Of a stretch of DNA of 64,000 nucleotides, positions 48,833 to 59,151 are shown piece by piece (the first letter of the stretch is position 1; every line of letters starts with the position of its first letter). A program made the translations under genes and the position numbers. The DNA lies in the NCBI GenBank assembly GCA_019044685.2, contig JAGTXX020000003.1:1178001-1242000 (forward strand), in the 5' to 3' direction. The notes below the pieces were generated by a model. That model saw nothing but the letters and a program-made list of their open reading frames with translations, did not search any database and had not been told where the DNA came from. The DNA comes from Nannochloris sp. 'desiccata'. Taxonomy: Eukaryota; Chlorophyta; Trebouxiophyceae; Chlorellales; Chlorellaceae.

Positions 48833-51800
48833 ATGGAGGTCGAAGAAGAAGCAGTAATGGTCGTGGATCAAACTTTAGAACAGAATGATCAGGCACAGCC
48901 AGTTGCAGACGATGGCGAGGCAGAGCTTTACTTCCTTATTGCACATGCTTTATCTGGTGGACCTTTTGCGCATATAGGGGAGACGCTCGTTGGGGAAGCA
49001 TCAGCACTTGGCTTACTTCCACCTCGCATTGATTACACGGGACAGCGGCACTCAATGCCTTATGCTCATTTGCGAGACCGCTATTCGCACTTACCGCAAG
49101 GAGCTCTCCGTCAAGGACTGCATGATTTATTGCAGTACCGCCGTGCTGAATTACAAGCTTTATCTGGACGCAGCAATGTCTCTAGTATCCTCGATCCCGC
49201 GGTGCTTCCCGGCCCTTCAGCTTTGAGCTCCAATTCTAACTTTACCACCAAGCCTCCTTTATGGACTTCACCCCCATTCAGCACGAAATGCAATGGGAAA
49301 GGTCTCCCCCGCCCTCATCTCGCTTTGCTACGCGAAACTGGTATTGCAGCTGGAAGCAGCGGTGGTGGCGGAGGTCACGAACTCCTTGCACCCCAGTCCT
49401 ATTCCCAGCTGCTACAACATCATTTCACAGTCCGTGGCCATTCTAGCGTCGCCTATTGCATAATGTTTGATAAAACTGGCTCCTATATCATCACTGGATC
49501 TGACGATAGGCTTGTCAAAGTCTGGGCCGTGACAACAGGACTGCTAAAATGTACTTGCCGAGGACATGATGCTGAGATCTCCGACTTGTCCGTAAGCTGT
49601 GATAATTCTATGTTTGCTTCATCGTCTGTGGATTCAGCTATTCGAGTATGGAAGTTACGTGGTGAAGAAGCGCAACGGCGGAATCAGCAGCTTGGCACGC
49701 CGGTATCTGTCTTACAAGGCCACTCTGAAGCGGTGACAGCGATTGATTTTTCACCCATTCAATCTCATATATTAGTATCGTCTAGTTTCGATGGGACAGT
49801 ACGAGTGTGGGATGCACGGGATGGAGCTATTGCACCGTTAATTTTGTATTCACAGGGGGCTGGAATGGGACCAGGTAGTGGTGGTGGTCTTACTCTGCCT
49901 CATACTTTGCTTGGCGGTGGTGGTGCCGATAATGCTAGGACAACACGTCATTCTGAACGGAGACAAATGGCCACGGCTTTAAATATATCTCGTGGTGCTG
50001 CTGGTGGTGTTGCAGGTGCAAATGGAGCTGGTCCTGGCCAGCAACAAGCGCAACAACAACAACAGCAACAGCATGAAGGGGAAGGTCGGCCCCGCCGCCG
50101 CGGTGCCAATCAGCCAGAGGTGGGCGAAGAGCACGAAGGTAATGACGATGAAGAAGAAGAAGATGTAGGTGTAGCAGCTGCTGCTGCTGCTTCACATGCT
50201 TTTCCAACACACAGTATGCTGACATGCTCCTTCACCAAAGAAGGTAGATACATAGTGTCAGGTAGCGAAGATTGTTGTGTCTACATTTGGCGCTGGCCGC
50301 AAAAGCCTGCAAGTGAAGCAAACGAAGAAGGGACAAAAACAGCTGCTGATGCAGCTGCTATTGTTAAGGTTGATGGAGTCGCTTCGACGAGTAAGGCTGC
50401 TGCAAGTGCAGCTCCCGCAGCGGTAGCAGTAGGAGCAGAAGAGCCTGAAGCTTGGCCAAGAATAGACGTACGTTTTTTTTTCTTCCTGAAGTTTTTGGTC
50501 TCTTGCAGACTAGTTGCAACTAAAAAACCCCTCGCTGAAGCCAATTGCTCTTATAGCTTAACTATATACTATTTTCTTCCCCCTTCCGTCATACTAAACT
50601 TTGTTTTTTTGTTTTTGCAGCCTCCAGCAAAGTTGGAAGGCCATCGTAATGACGCCTGGTTGACCCAACACAGCAACAATGGAGAATTCCTCGCGTCAGG
50701 GTCAAAAGATGGCACAGTCCGTATATGGCGTCGACCTCGCCGCGGCCGCCGTGGCCGTGGCGCTTCTTCCTGGCATCTTGAAGCCACCTGTGCGTGCCCC
50801 ATCGAGGAAGACGCTGCAGCCCTCGCTCGCCGTCGGGGCAGACAACATCCCCCTCCTAGGGTAGATCAAATTGCATGGACCTGTGACGATTCTTATTTAG
50901 TTGCGAGTATGCAAGATACACGTGTGCATATCTTTTCGATGCCAGATGGTAAACTTATCCATAGTTTGAAGGGTCACACGGAAGCAATCCACGTCTTGCT
51001 CGCTCACCCTAGTTACCCTTCAATTGCCATCTCAGCTGCCTATTCTGGGGAAGCTGTGGTATGGGATGTCGTACAGGGCACTGCCTTGCGTACTCTAGAT
51101 AGTAGAGCGACGAGACCAGGGGGTAGATCGTGGCCAGACGGTCTTCCCTTTGTGGATGGGTTGATCGCCAGCGATGGTACTGGTTTTGGGTTGACAGACG
51201 CAGCAGGACAGCTGCATTTGTACGGGTAAGTTATAATATTAGCGGTATTTCTCGCTGTTATAAGGCTTCTTTGGTGCTATTTCTACTGGTTATTTGCTCA
51301 GTATAATAATAAAGACTGATGCTCTCGTCTGATTTCTGATAATAATTACAAACACATATTTAAACCCTGTTCTTCACTTTCTTCCTTTTTCTTCTTCTTT
51401 CTTCTTCAGGCTTGGTCCTCGATGTGAGCTCACATACCGGGCCCCTTATGATCAATTCCTTAGTACAGATTACGAACCGCTGCTACGAGATGTCCACGGC
51501 AATGTTGTTTCTGCTGCAACACAAACCCCGGCTCATATCCGGACCGGCCGTGAGCTTCTTACAGACGCTACAGGTTCCCCTTACCCTCTCCCCTTCCAAG
51601 ATGCATACCGAAACGGTAAATTACTTCAAGTTTCTGAAGCAGAGGCGTCTTATGTAGAAGCTGGCAAACAGCCGGGGTATTTGTTGGCAGCTCCGACCCT
51701 TTCAGCTGCTGTTTGGAGAGCGTATTTATCAGGTGGGAGTGATACTTCAGCTCAAAATGCGATTGCACGTGCAGGCGCGCGGTTAGCTGAACATGACGCT

Positions 51801-54545
51801 GCTTTAGATAGGCTTGAATCTGCTAGAATGCAAAATGCTGCTGCTGCTGCTGCAGGTGGACATCGTGGTGGTACTGGCCGCGGCCGAGGCGGTGCAGGCA
51901 CTGGTGGAGGTGCTGCTCGAACCGCTGCAGGAAATGTTGTTTATTTAGATGATGATTCTGAAGAACCTGATATTCTTAGCTCTGAAGATGAGTATGATGA
52001 AGACTTTGATGAAGAAGAAGCTACTCCTGGTGGTGGAAATCGTCGAGCTCAAAGCACAAGGCTTCGTAGAGAGCAGCAACCTGCCCGTCATTCTACTAGA
52101 ATACTGAGCCAACGCGGTGGTAGTCAACAGACACAAACACAGGTTGGTGCTAGCCGTTCTCGCCGTATGAATGCTCAAGAATTACGAGATCGTCAACGGG
52201 AAGAAAGAGAGGAAAGACATCGACGACGCCACGAAGCTCACATGGCATCTGTAGAACAGCAACGCCGCCGTCGGGAACGCCATGCCCGAGCTGCTGGTGC
52301 AAGTGGTCGTAGTACTCGCGCTGCAGCACGTAATACACGCGCAGGTAATAGAGAAGATGAATTCCTGGTTGGCGATTCAAGTGAGGACGATGGTGGTGGT
52401 GGTCAAGACGATCTTGGTGATGAAGAAGAAGAAGTAGACGTGTATGAAATAGAGGAGGAGGATGAAGATTATTCTCATGATGAGGATTATCTTATGCGTG
52501 GAAACGGTGGCGGTCGCGGTGGGGTTCACTCAGAAGAGGAGGAGGAGTATATAGATACAGAAGACGAGGAAGAAACTGGTGGTGGTGGTGGTGGTAATGC
52601 AAGAAGAAGGAAACGTGGTAGGAGAGGTGGTGGTGAAGCAGCAGCTGGACAGCGTGATTCTAAACGTCTTCGTGGTGAAGGGAACGCTAGAAATAATGGC
52701 GGTGCTGCTTCAGGTGGTGGTGCTGGCTCCTCACGCCCTCGGCCGTCGACGGCGGCCGCTCCCCGTGCCTCCAGTTCCTACGCTTGGCTCGCTGGAGCTG
52801 AATACCGACCTGGTTTCTACGTTCCTCAAGCTGGAGACGACGTCATTTATCTTCGTGAAGGACACGCTGCAGTTCTCACTGCTACAAGCGATAAGAGAGT
52901 ACCTCCATGGCAATCAATGCACCGAGGCCGTCTCATGCGGCCAGCAGAGCCCTGCGCGATCACTTCTGTCCATTACAGCTTAGCGCAAGATGGTACGGAA
53001 GCTACTGCAGTACAGGCATGTCTTGAATTAACCGACCCTGCCTCTCCATTACGTGGCCAGTCATTTACAGTGGATGTATTGCCGCCGTCCTCAGGGCAAG
53101 CTGAATTTGTTATTTTGAAATCCCGTTTTGAGCAAGCGGTAGCCACTCCGTGGGCTTTAGGTGACCGGTGTGTCTCATATTGGCAAACAGGCTCCACTGC
53201 AGGTGCTGATGGAGCTGGCGGGGAGTGGTGGAGCGGTACTATCGTTGCTGATACGCGTGAACAGGGGCCTACAGGCGTGGCTGCTGATACTTATGGATGT
53301 GGCGGTTTGTGGGAGCGTTGGCAGATCAAATGGCAAGGAACTATTGACAGCTCTGGAAATTTAGTTGTTCAAGAAGGAAATACCAATACGGGTAATGATC
53401 CTGGTTATATTGGTGGTGATGGAGGTGAAGGACGAATAGCTGGACCAGGGCCGTCTACTGCTGAGGGTGCTGGTGCTGAACAAGATCCTGAATCCTCCGG
53501 CGCTGCTGCTGCTGCTGCTGCCGCCACGGATGTCGAAGAAGATATCTCCCGGCATTCTCCTTGGGAAATTTTCCTTTGGGAAACAATCCGTGATGCCCCC
53601 ATACCTCCAGGAACACCTTGCCTTGACAATTCTACCTGCACCCGTCTTGCTTCCGCTATAGAAATTGCTGCAGCACAAGATGCATGGACGATTTTCCAAG
53701 CGGCCCCTGAATGGAACGAGGCCTACCGGTCTTTAAGTGGCCGCCAAGAGTACTACAACCGCCGTATTCCTCTCCCTTTAGGCTTAATGGACATCGTCAC
53801 GAGGTTGCATTTGAGGTATTATCGACAGAAAGAAGCTTTACAGCATGATATTAGGACTATCTCGGACAATGCAGCTGTTTTTAATGGAAGTTCAAGCGAT
53901 ATTGCAATGGACGCCAGATCTCTGGCGAGGTATTTGTTGGCTGTGGTGGACGCTGAAGAGGTTGAAGAAGTAAACGTGGAGGAGTATTTAGCACATGAAG
54001 AAGGTGGTGGAGGTGGTGGTGGTGGTACCCGTGGAAATGGCGGCGATGGTGGTGGTCAAGATGGCTGGGATGTTCTGGAAGCGGAAGAAGAAGAAGAAGA
54101 AGAAGAAGAAGAGGATGAGGAAGAAATGGTTTTGGCGAGAGCTCGTAATAGAAGTCGCTCTGGTTCTCGTCGTCCTGCGTGGTATGAAGGCGCTGCTGCA
54201 TTCCATCAACCTGGACCTGACGAGAGAAGAAGAGCTCGTGGTAGTAAGAGACGCGGTGGTAGTCCTGTTGAAAATGTTGCAAGTGGGAGTGGGAGAAGAA
54301 GTGCTAGGGTTCCTCAAAGAGTTAATTATAGAGAGATGCTTGAAGATGGGGGTATACTCGATGAACGACCTGTGCGCGATACTACTGCTGCTGTTCCTCC
54401 TCAGCATATGTACTCAACAAGGCGTGCCCAGGCGGCAGATGAGGCTGCTGCGGTGGCAGCGGTGGAGGAGGCAGAGGCGGCTGATGCAGCTAGGCAGCGG
54501 CAAAGAATGACTATTAGATTAGGTCGCTTGAATGATTTGCAGTAG
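48833..54545 (+). CDS. BRWD/PHIP-type WD40-bromodomain chromatin protein
   Basis: Exons 48833-50467, 50621-51225 and 51410-54545 (GTACGT and GTAAGT donors) give 1791 residues. The N-terminus has the BRWD helical start (YFLIAHALSGGPFAHIGETL). WD40 repeats run through exons 1-2: HSSVAYCIMFDKTGSYIITG, DDRLVKVW, HDAEISDLSV, HSEAVTAIDFSP, GTVRVWDA, GSEDCCVYIW, GSKDGTVRIWRR and HTEAIHVLL. Exon 3 opens with the PHIP-type linker (QFLSTDYEPLLRDVHGNVVS), then acidic, Arg-rich low-complexity tracts, and a bromodomain at about 1455-1590 (IPLPLGLMDIVTRLHLRYYR, then SDNAAVFNGSSSD). Such proteins read acetylated or methylated histones and serve as DCAF substrate receptors. Triplet runs (GAA, GGT, GCT) are frequent. 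Confidence 0.92.
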
Positions 54546-54852: not shown

Positions 54853-57800
54853 ATGCGAAATAAAGCAGTATCAGCATCCAGGTGGCGACACTATGGAACC
54901 GTAGTCGTGTGCTTGATTTTTGCTCAAACAGCTGCAGCTCAGGTTGAGTCCAATACGGCGCCTTTCAAGGCTCCTGCCCCACCTAACATTTGGAAGCAAG
55001 ATTCGATTGACGCGGCCCGAACACAATGGCTGGCTCAAGTAGAGTAAGTCTCCCCAACCTAAAGGTCCTTATACAAAGAACTAGATTTGAGCAAGTTGCA
55101 ACCTTTGCATTTAATTCTTCTTAAACACTATTTCAAAAAACATTTCTCTCTCGTCCCGCTTGCTGCAGCACCGCAGGCACCCCTTCTGTTGCTGCTACAG
55201 AGGCCGTCTCGATCCTCCGCATAGTCGGCGCTGATGCGGTTCCATTTACCCAAACGAAGCAGAAGATTGCAGGGCTTGCCTTTGATGATGTCATGCCTCC
55301 AGGTATTATCATGCCGTCTTTCTTGTCCTGTCTTTTGCTGCTGCGTTGATTACCTCTGGTTTTCTATTCTGACGGATTGGCTCGACTTATAAAATCATTA
55401 TATCAAATTCTCCACGATTTAAATTGCAGGTGGCATTGTAGAGTTTATTACTTTTCAAGAAGGGGCTCCAGAGTTTGACAATCCAGATCAGGTCTCTTTC
55501 GGAGAGCCCTACGTGGACATTGCTGCCATTCTATGGCAAATACCTCAAAAGGTCGTACCTGGAAAGCCCGTTCCGTGGGGCACTCAGTCTCAAGCAGTGC
55601 TGCTTTGGGGTGAGGCATTACAGCAACGGGGCTTGAACGTGAAAGTGAAAGTATTGAGTTTAAATGTTGCACAAACGACATTATCCCGTCAAATACAACT
55701 TTTTCCGCTTGAAGTAGTCCAAATATTAGTAGAGCTCGATCTTGAATACAGCAATACCAGTAACGATAAATTAATGACAGCAGCAGAAATAAATGCAACA
55801 ACAAGGACTACTAGTGGATTGACGCCAAATCAAACATGGGCAGTAACAGATGGCGCTGAAAAATATTTAAACGGATTTGCAACCTCGAATATAGAAGTGT
55901 CACAAGCTAATCAAGTAGTTCTAACGACTAAATATCCAGAAGTAGCTGCCAATTTACAGCCAGGCAAGGCTTTATTGGAATTACAGATATCGGTGTATGC
56001 ATGTCAAGAAGATGAATCTACAGGACTCTTAGAAGCGAAGCAACCACCAGAAAATTGTGAACTTGACGTAGCTAAGCGGACTTTAGATGCTTTCTTTAGA
56101 GATCCCAAAACACTAGCATCGTTCTCCCAAGTAGGCCTTGGTTGGGATAACACCATCATTGCCGCACAATATAGACACATCCCTCTTGCCGCCCTAAACC
56201 CTGCAGGGACTGCTAACAGTGGAGTTGTTAGCAGCAGTGAACAGTGGCTGCCATGGCATTTAGATATATTAGATCAACGCTCATTGCCCCTAGATGGAAA
56301 ATTCACCTCCACCGCCGATGGGACAGGCGTGAATATTTACGTCATCTCCTCAGGCATCCAAGCAGATCACCAAGAATTCGCACAAAAGAACTCCGATGGG
56401 ACGTTTAACACCGACATCTCACGTGTCAATGGTCTTTGGGGTGTTGACGGGATTGACCCGAAAACTGATTGCCCAGATGGCAGTTTGTGGTATTATTTTG
56501 GAACTTGGGCCGCTTCCATTATCGCCGGGTCTACCGTGGGGGTTGCTAAAAATGCAACTCTACATTCAGTGCGTATGAGAGAAACGTGTATACTTGATAA
56601 TAGAAACATTTGGAGTCCTGGTGCACTTCCCAGTGCGCTAGATGCTGTGTTGAGTACTTTTAAGAAGCCCGGGATTGTTGCCATTGACACATGGTGGTCG
56701 CCAAGTAGGCTAGCAGATGATGATGATGCTTTCATAGAAACTGAGATCGGTTGGCGATTACAGAAAGCAGCTGAATTGGATATTCCAATTTTTACCACCG
56801 CTGGGGTCGGTGTTACTTCTTCAACGCCTTGTGACAATATCTTTTCACAAGGCAAGTCGGTGATTAGAGTGTCGGGAATTGATTCGAGCCTCGGTGCAAG
56901 TATTACAGGGTCTACAAACTCAAATTGTATTGATATATGGGCACCTGGAGGTGGTCTTACTGCTGCGATTACTGGTGCATCTGCTAATAACAAAGATGAA
57001 TATACTTCTGTGGTGCCACGTGGCTTTGGTGGAGCGTGGCTTGTTGCAGGAATGGCCGCTCAATATTTGCAATTGCACCCAAACGCTACATTTTCTGAAC
57101 TGAAAAAAGCGTTACTAGATGCCAGTACGTTAGATGTTGTACAAAAGGCAGGGCCTGAGTCCAATAATGCATTAGCATTTACAAACTTGATGTCGCCACC
57201 AAATGGTGAGAGCGTTAACAGCGAAAGTAACGGCGGTGCCGTCAATGCTGCTGGTGATAATGAATCAAATGATGGTAACATTTCAACTGGTGCTATTGTT
57301 GGTATTGCTATTGCTGCATTGGTAGCAAGTATCGTAGCCATTGCTCTATTCATGACCTCGTCACGAAAGAAGAAAATGCACATCCTTGATGGAGATATGA
57401 GTGGTTCAGTTGGAAAACTTGGAGCATTCTTACACCAAGGCAATAGCGGCAGTAGTGGAACGAGTAGTATCGGTAAATATAATAAGAATAGTGGTAGTCA
57501 TGGTGGTGAAAATGGAGCAACTGCTGCAACTGCCACAGCCACACCAACCCCCTTGAACGCCCCAGCAAAGATTAAAAAACACGATTGGGAAATTAAGGAA
57601 GATCAAATTGAATACGTCCCTGGCCCCGATGGATCTTCAGAATACTGGGTGTTGGGTAGAGGTCGTTACGGAGAAGTTCGACGTGCACTTAAAGACGGAA
57701 TCCAGGAAGTAGCAGTAAAAACTTTACGACGTGATATTGATGCTCTAGGGGAGCTTCCTCATGATGCCTTTGCGCGAGAAATTGCTGTGATGCAATGGTT

Positions 57801-59151
57801 GAGTAGAGATGCTAACGTAGTACAATTTTTTGGAGCGTGTGTTCGCCCTGGCTCGATGTTGTTGGTTACAGAATTGATGGAAGGCGGCGATTTACGTGCC
57901 CGATTACGCCCTCACGCTTCTTCTTTAAAAAATAGGCAAGGCAGCGATCAAGGCAACAACAACGCAGGTTTCATAGATTCATCAGATTTTAAGTCGTGGG
58001 GATGGTACGGTAGAGGAAAAGGGGTCGCATTGGATGTTGCAAAAGGCCTCCACTTTCTTCATTCTCATGGGGTGGTTCATCGAGATATTAAATCTAAGAA
58101 TATTTTACTAGGTAGAGACGGCCGTGCAAAACTGGGCGACGTCGGCTTAGCCTATATTTCATTTTCGGAGACACCTGAAAATAGCGAGAAGAAAAAGAAG
58201 CGAAGAAATGGTATTAGTAGCAGTCAAGGCAGTAATGAGGATGATGGTTTTGTAGGAACCTTTGCATTTTCAGCTCCAGAGTTGATATTATGCGGTGCAT
58301 GCACCCCAAAAGCTGACGTGTACAGCTTTGGCGTCGTTCTTTGGGAAATTTTAACAGGAGAAGTCGCTCAACGCGGACATTTGCGACCTCCAATTGTCCC
58401 CGAAGAGTGTCCAGAAGGTGTCGTCGATGTGCTAAACGCGTGTCTCTCTGCTGATCCTGATGAAAGACCTTCTGCTAGAGAAGCGTATGAATTTTTACTT
58501 GCATGTCCTCCGTTTGAATCAAGCACTGGGTACGAATATCAGCAGCATTTGCATCAACAGCAATTGCAAGGGCAGGGGGTCTATTCGACGAGATTAAGTA
58601 ATGGGAGTACCACTCGTGGAGATATACTAGGAGGACCAGGAGGGTTTTTAACCTCTCCTCCATTACCCTCGCCACTAGTTTCAGCACTACCACCAGCTCA
58701 GCCAGGAACAACAGCAGGAGCAGCGGGGGGAGCAGCAGGCGCATTACCGCAGAAGCAACAGTGGGGAGGGGGAGATAGTCTTAGCCTTCCCTCCTTGCAC
58801 TCTGATTCTTTACCCAGTATTTCAACTGATTCACACGGCGGTGTAATCCGTAATTTTACTAACGCGCCTTTTGAAACTAAAACTGGTGGTGCTACGTATA
58901 ATGAAAATGAAACAAGCAAGAGTGGTGGTACCACTAGTCGTGGTGGTGGTGGTGGTAGTGTCGAGGATAGCCAAGCGTCGTCGTCTTCAGTTATGCGTTC
59001 TTTGGGGACTTTAACGCCTGGACTACGGTCTGTTGTACATCAAATTCGAAAGAGATTTAGTGGAGATGCTGCAGAAAATCAAGAAATATATAGAAACAGT
59101 GAAACAATTAACAATAATGACAAAATCAATACGTTGGCCACTGAAGTTTAA
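54853..59151 (+). CDS. Receptor-like protein: pseudo-subtilisin ectodomain, membrane helix, TKL-like kinase
   Basis: Exons 54853-55043, 55169-55302 and 55430-59151 splice in phase to 1348 residues. A signal peptide (VVVCLIFAQTAAAQ) and about 350 residues of unknown ectodomain come first. Residues about 385-655 follow proteinase K from end to end, but catalytic positions are changed: VNIYVISSGIQADHQEF (IDTG Asp to Ser, ~415), YYFGTWAASIIAG (GHGTH His to Phe), IFTTAGVGV (AAGN Asn to Val), RGFGGAWLVAGMAAQYL (GTSMA Ser lost). One membrane helix (GAIVGIAIAALVASIVAIAL, ~728-750) leads to an intact kinase domain (846-1136): GRGRYGEV, VAVK, HRDIKSKN, DVG in place of DFG, SAPEL, DVYSFGVVLWEILTG. The tail is Gly/Ser/Pro-rich. 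A pseudoprotease sensing domain signalling through the kinase is inferred. Confidence 0.85.

Follow-up and report, generated by a model that had tools for sequence, protein, structure and literature searches.

The closest described counterparts of the ectodomain considered here are the S8 proteases of the proteinase K subfamily, such as the extracellular serine proteinase 8c4z and aqualysin 1, which are homologous to it over its whole length. PCSK9, which appears among the PDB matches of this domain, is an S8 fold that serves binding rather than broad proteolysis; it is secreted and self-cleaving and has no kinase. CspC and CspA of C. difficile are S8-fold pseudoproteases, as the domain described below appears to be, and are not known to share a chain with a membrane helix and a kinase. 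Among S8 pseudoproteases, the best sensor precedent that came to light is CspC, which is described as soluble. It has no kinase and retains one triad residue, the Asp (G485, T170, D105; PMC6636752). Across 91 prokaryotic genomes, a survey classes 42 of 966 serine proteases from five families as putative inactive homologues (PMC2605481), and the word kinase is absent from its main text.

The locus described here lies in a window of 64,000 nucleotides from the alga Nannochloris sp. 'desiccata' (contig JAGTXX020000003.1). Compared with the proteinase K subfamily, its S8 domain carries other residues at the four catalytic positions and in two motifs of the substrate strands, gives no PF00082 match, and belongs to the same polypeptide as a membrane helix and a kinase. 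This shared chain also separates it from CspC-type sensors, which are proteins of their own with a prodomain and a jelly roll, and CspC and CspA are bacterial, unlike the window's gene. With plant receptor-like kinases it has in common an ectodomain, one membrane helix and a cytosolic kinase with an HRD motif, but its ectodomain is an S8 pseudoprotease and its kinase matches a mixture of TKL and tyrosine kinases. No description of this layout was found in the literature searched, in which most subscription papers were outside reach. To our knowledge, pseudoenzymes serving as receptors are few, and environmental sensing by green algae outside the land-plant line is poorly known. With a dead yet conserved protease joined to a kinase, one can ask directly what a pseudo-active site recognises, and homologous recombination works in Auxenochlorella (PMC12636532).

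Gene structure and domain layout

Splice reconstruction gives a gene of three exons on the plus strand, to which all window coordinates refer, encoding 1348 amino acids, with introns of 125 and 127 bp that have GT..AG ends. Exon 1 (54853-55043) contributes the ATG and a possible signal peptide (about residues 1-29), exon 2 spans 55169-55302, and exon 3 (55430-59151) encodes most of the ectodomain, the membrane helix, the kinase, the tail and the stop. The frame at 55432-59151 is stop-free across the S8-like domain, the membrane helix and the kinase, with a length of 1242 residues. The NCBI model Ndes2526A_g01353 from Nannochloris sp. 'desiccata' (P0001 in the comparisons below) has the same length as the 1348-residue product, also in agreement with exon 1, and differs from it at 6 residues; it is probably the version of another haplotype or strain. 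An earlier note on this DNA had placed the gene at 55430..59151 and joined the three parts in one frame. The single frame stands, supported by its freedom from stops and by the equal-length NCBI model, whereas 55430 turns out to be the start of exon 3 rather than of the gene, which has two short 5' exons at 54853-55302. That reading had been made without these 5' exons, without relatives and without a separate N-terminal domain, all three of which are now found.

From the N-terminus, the domain order is a possible signal peptide, an N-terminal domain, the S8-like domain (residues 381-695), a helix, a linker, the kinase and a tail. The N-terminus contains a short hydrophobic core, VVVCLIFAQTA (residues 17-27), with an 11-residue mean hydropathy of 2.33. 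The signal peptide is nevertheless unsure because, by hydropathy alone rather than a signal-peptide program, the 19-residue value never rises above 1.29 in the first 40 residues. The N-terminal ectodomain (residues 75-360; 55200..56184, with intron 2 inside) is delimited by the family alignment, holds two invariant Cys (300 and 318) and has no assigned kind. A Pfam scan of the whole of P0001 gives no match in this domain, its exon 3 part has no second match in the genome, and hhalign finds no relation of its halves to each other or to the S8 domain. Only one 19-residue stretch exceeds a hydropathy of 1.6 (reaching 2.9), which places a single predicted membrane helix, at about residues 729-751 (57289..57357) and followed by RKKK, between ectodomain and kinase.

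Family members

The earlier note had proposed a search for an S8 domain and a kinase in one chain elsewhere, and this search succeeds: seven further proteins (P0002-P0008) carry complete S8 and kinase domains in the same layout as P0001. One of them, P0006, is from Auxenochlorella; the others are presumably green-algal as well. Several of the seven start late at the N-terminus. Two are close to the window protein, and seven independent relatives are a small number. The homologue searches scored the candidates sharing most words (8000, 8000 and 7999), which makes the family range a lower bound. Started from P0008, the most distant member, the search returned that protein alone among 7999 candidates. 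A profile search over 8000 candidates returned none of P0001, P0006, P0007 and P0008; absence from other algae therefore cannot be claimed. Within the genome, the 43 listed matches, obtained by scoring 38 out of 119 candidates, include no second S8 plus kinase locus.

Loss of the catalytic residues

Residues 381-695 (56245..57189) form an S8 proteinase-K-like pseudoprotease domain. A phmmer search of solved structures links it to 8c4z (E 3.8e-23), a family profile built from six sequences reaches E 1.1e-37, and comparing its profile with that of ten S8 proteins gives a probability of 99.93%. The predicted subtilisin-type fold rests on these sequence profiles. The domain has Cys at the aqualysin-type positions, and we take their pairing to be of the aqualysin type as well. 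In Pfam, the window protein has the kinase alone above cutoff and no PF00082 row; PF00082 exceeds its curated cutoff in P0005, P0006 and P0007, falls below it in P0002, P0003 and P0004, and is absent in P0008. Since PF00082 is thus below the Pfam cutoff or absent in five of the eight, including the window protein, such receptors can stay labelled hypothetical.

Alignment places Ser415 (56347..56349) at the catalytic Asp, Phe465 (56497..56499) at the catalytic His, Val568 (56806..56808) at the oxyanion Asn and Phe641 (57025..57027) at the catalytic Ser, the same four losses that had been claimed from the sequence at first reading. Across the family, the Asp position is replaced in 10 of 10 members (Ser in nine, Thr in one; P0001-P0008, P0016 and P0017) and the His position in all nine that reach it (eight Phe, one Ile). 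The oxyanion Asn is likewise replaced in 9/9, by another residue in eight and by a gap in P0008, and the Ser position in each of the eight members reaching that site (Phe in six, His in one, Ala in one). All four residues are missing from each of the eight members whose S8 domain is complete, and the truncated P0016 and P0017 agree wherever letters exist. All 17 comparators shown retain all four; they were chosen by the Asp motif, so their Asp is intact partly by selection, and P0019, in which that motif was not found, was left out of this alignment. The eight members contain no conserved replacement triad, and the sole invariant His of their S8 domain is His422. As 54 of 57 active comparators also have His there, it is not a new catalytic residue. 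A conserved alternative catalytic triad is accordingly rejected, the single invariant His being ancestral.

Conservation and the former cleft

Pairwise identity within the set of eight averages 0.53 for the pseudoprotease and 0.58 for the kinase; elsewhere it drops to 0.30 for stalk plus helix, 0.28 for the N-terminal domain, 0.27 for the linker and 0.26 for the tail (pairs with fewer than 30 shared columns omitted, except for stalk and helix). Invariant columns number 69 of 315 in the pseudoprotease of the eight-protein alignment and 5 of 286 in the N-terminal domain, and six ectodomain Cys are invariant in all eight. The dead S8 domain comes close to the kinase in conservation, which points to constraint; conservation at this level would not be expected under decay. 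The earlier note's preference for selection over decay gains support from eight of eight complete S8 domains that lack all four residues and yet remain this conserved. A binding or interface role would be the simplest cause of this conservation.

In another alignment, which adds 57 active S8 domains, the family has 68 invariant columns, of which 31 are ancestral, 27 new and 10 intermediate. Its comparators were chosen by their Asp and Gly-Thr-Ser/Ala motifs, and their intact Asp and Ser are in part a product of that choice. P0019, P0056, P0062 and P0073 (Asp motif absent), P0049, P0053, P0057, P0058 and P0065 (short or no Ser motif), and the own-genome loci L002, L003, L005, L006 and L008 (no frame picked) were left out, and five of the 27 new columns (445, 495, 544, 624 and 625) have three or fewer comparators aligned. 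Two family-invariant motifs fall on former substrate strands: Ile502-Trp503 (56608..56613) aligns with the Ser-Gly of the S2-S4 strand, and in Thr529-Trp-Trp-Ser532 (56689..56700) the TWW aligns with the Leu-Gly-Gly of the S1-S3 strand. In proteinase K these two strands hold the substrate. Of 26 new positions (Cys495 left out), 6 fall on a set of 20 cleft residues, against 1.7 expected (p 0.003), and without all five sparsely aligned columns it is 6 of 22 against 1.4 (p 0.001); the 20 residues were picked from knowledge of proteinase K after the list of new positions was known, are conserved in active enzymes too, and were tested against a uniform null. An enrichment of new invariant positions in the former cleft is therefore no more than suggested, and the bulky replacements could plug the cleft rather than form a pocket.

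The kinase domain and related kinases

The cytosolic protein kinase domain spans residues 826-1136 (57580..58512; Pfam PF07714, E 8.1e-40) and retains Lys872, Asp994 of HRD and Asp1012 of DVG, just as had been claimed. The Lys, the helix-C Glu, the HRD Asp, the DxG Asp and the APE motif are present in 8/8 members; the glycine loop is complete in seven, and P0008 has Ser for the third Gly. Among the best 60 of 409 PDB matches are TKL kinases (CTR1, TNNI3K, IRAK4, RIPK1 and B-raf), tyrosine kinases and BIK1. The otherwise variable kinase tail contains a conserved C-terminal island, the motif SLGTLTPGLRSVVHQIRKRF (residues 1299-1318; 58999..59058), which stands out clearly in P0002-P0004, is less distinct in P0006 and P0007, and is not seen in P0005 or P0008.

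Ten related kinase loci were picked from the matches in the genome. In the scanned frame only, fasciclin domains are found in four, PAN in one and LRR in one, and four have no such match; a hydrophobic stretch between such a domain and the kinase is visible by eye in several of these fasciclin-, PAN- and LRR-kinases. Their kinase domains are related to that of the window, whereas none of the ten loci matches its ectodomain at E 1e-3. The presence of fasciclin, PAN or LRR domains upstream of these kinases fits a receptor family that swaps binding modules. The fasciclin domains lie upstream of the kinase at L018, L019, L020 and L023, with the kinase of L020 in the next frame. A literature search for fasciclin-kinases turned up an arabinogalactan-protein survey alone.

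A quick tree unites the eight pseudoprotease domains in one group with a long stem (SH-aLRT 100). The kinase tree has 16 rows, among them all the paralogue loci but L025 and L026, eight in number, and the eight pseudoprotease kinases do not fall on one side of a branch in it (2 changes). Only 1 change is needed in 9% of 200 bootstrap trees; P0008 and L021 have long branches, and L021 and L024 lack the HRDxKxxN pattern in the alignment. Without a single group, that tree does not show that kinase and ectodomain descended together; module swapping or tree error may lie behind this.

Proposed role

We consider it likely that these genes form an old family of green-algal receptor kinases whose pseudoprotease ectodomain is a binding module with a candidate role towards a ligand. 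An S8 fold of the proteinase K type would have turned into the non-catalytic ectodomain of a single-pass receptor kinase, probably before the known members diverged. In or close to its former cleft, the pseudoprotease, perhaps together with the N-terminal domain, would bind an extracellular ligand such as a peptide, a protease or a cell-wall glycan. Binding would alter the association state of the receptor, and the kinase would then phosphorylate downstream proteins; the ligand, the pocket and the activation are what we infer. A narrower version is quite possible, if tentative: the fold may have become a ligand-recognition ectodomain before the Nannochloris/Auxenochlorella split, provided the genes are orthologous, with the cleft rebuilt as a conserved aromatic pocket (F/I-G-T, IW and TWWS) that binds one conserved extracellular ligand.

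Alternatively, the pseudoprotease could be a structural or adhesive module for dimerisation or wall anchoring, with nothing in the cleft and the sensing left to the N-terminal domain. New bulky residues that may occupy the cleft would suit this, a dimer interface would be conserved as well, and paralogous kinases bear fasciclin domains, which are usually adhesive. A poorly conserved N-terminal domain beside a highly conserved S8 domain is, however, the opposite of what a mere spacer would leave, and we regard this alternative as unlikely.

Rather improbable is a role in sensing or controlling active extracellular S8 proteases, as a decoy for propeptides, inhibitors or substrates. The genome does encode such a protease candidate, the proteinase-K-like S8 protein L007 with all four residues, and clostridial Csp pseudoproteases act next to an active sibling (PMC6636752), but the peptide-substrate strands are replaced in the pseudoprotease domain. 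That rearranged residues, for example a triad of non-conserved ones, keep the domain active as a protease is very improbable; S8 homology does span the whole domain, yet His422 is ancestral and shared with active enzymes, and the Ser position varies among Phe, His and Ala. There is next to no likelihood that an assembly, annotation or pseudogene artefact has fused two genes, an idea for which no supporting point was found and against which stand the 1242-residue frame without a stop and seven further proteins, of several origins, that have the identical fusion. As relatives carry the same S8 plus kinase fusion, this artefact is rejected.

Other observations in the window and genome

Upstream in the window, adjacent plus-strand frames at 48833-54545 encode a BRWD1_N domain with WD40 repeats and then a bromodomain, and we take them to be a single BRWD/PHIP-type gene with an intron. 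Elsewhere in the genome, the S8 genes near the end of contig G000:C6 recur on the 457 kb contig G000:C13 with near-equal scores, similar spacing and reversed order, as would fit G000:C13 being a haplotig, an alternative version of this stretch of G000:C6. Four kinase matches of near-equal score form a tandem array with a spacing of about 3.56 kb at G000:C6:72017-83217 on the minus strand. On G000:C15, kinase places with identical scores lie on opposite strands at 357790-358569 (minus) and 900408-901187 (plus), and this pair is either an inverted duplication or an assembly feature.
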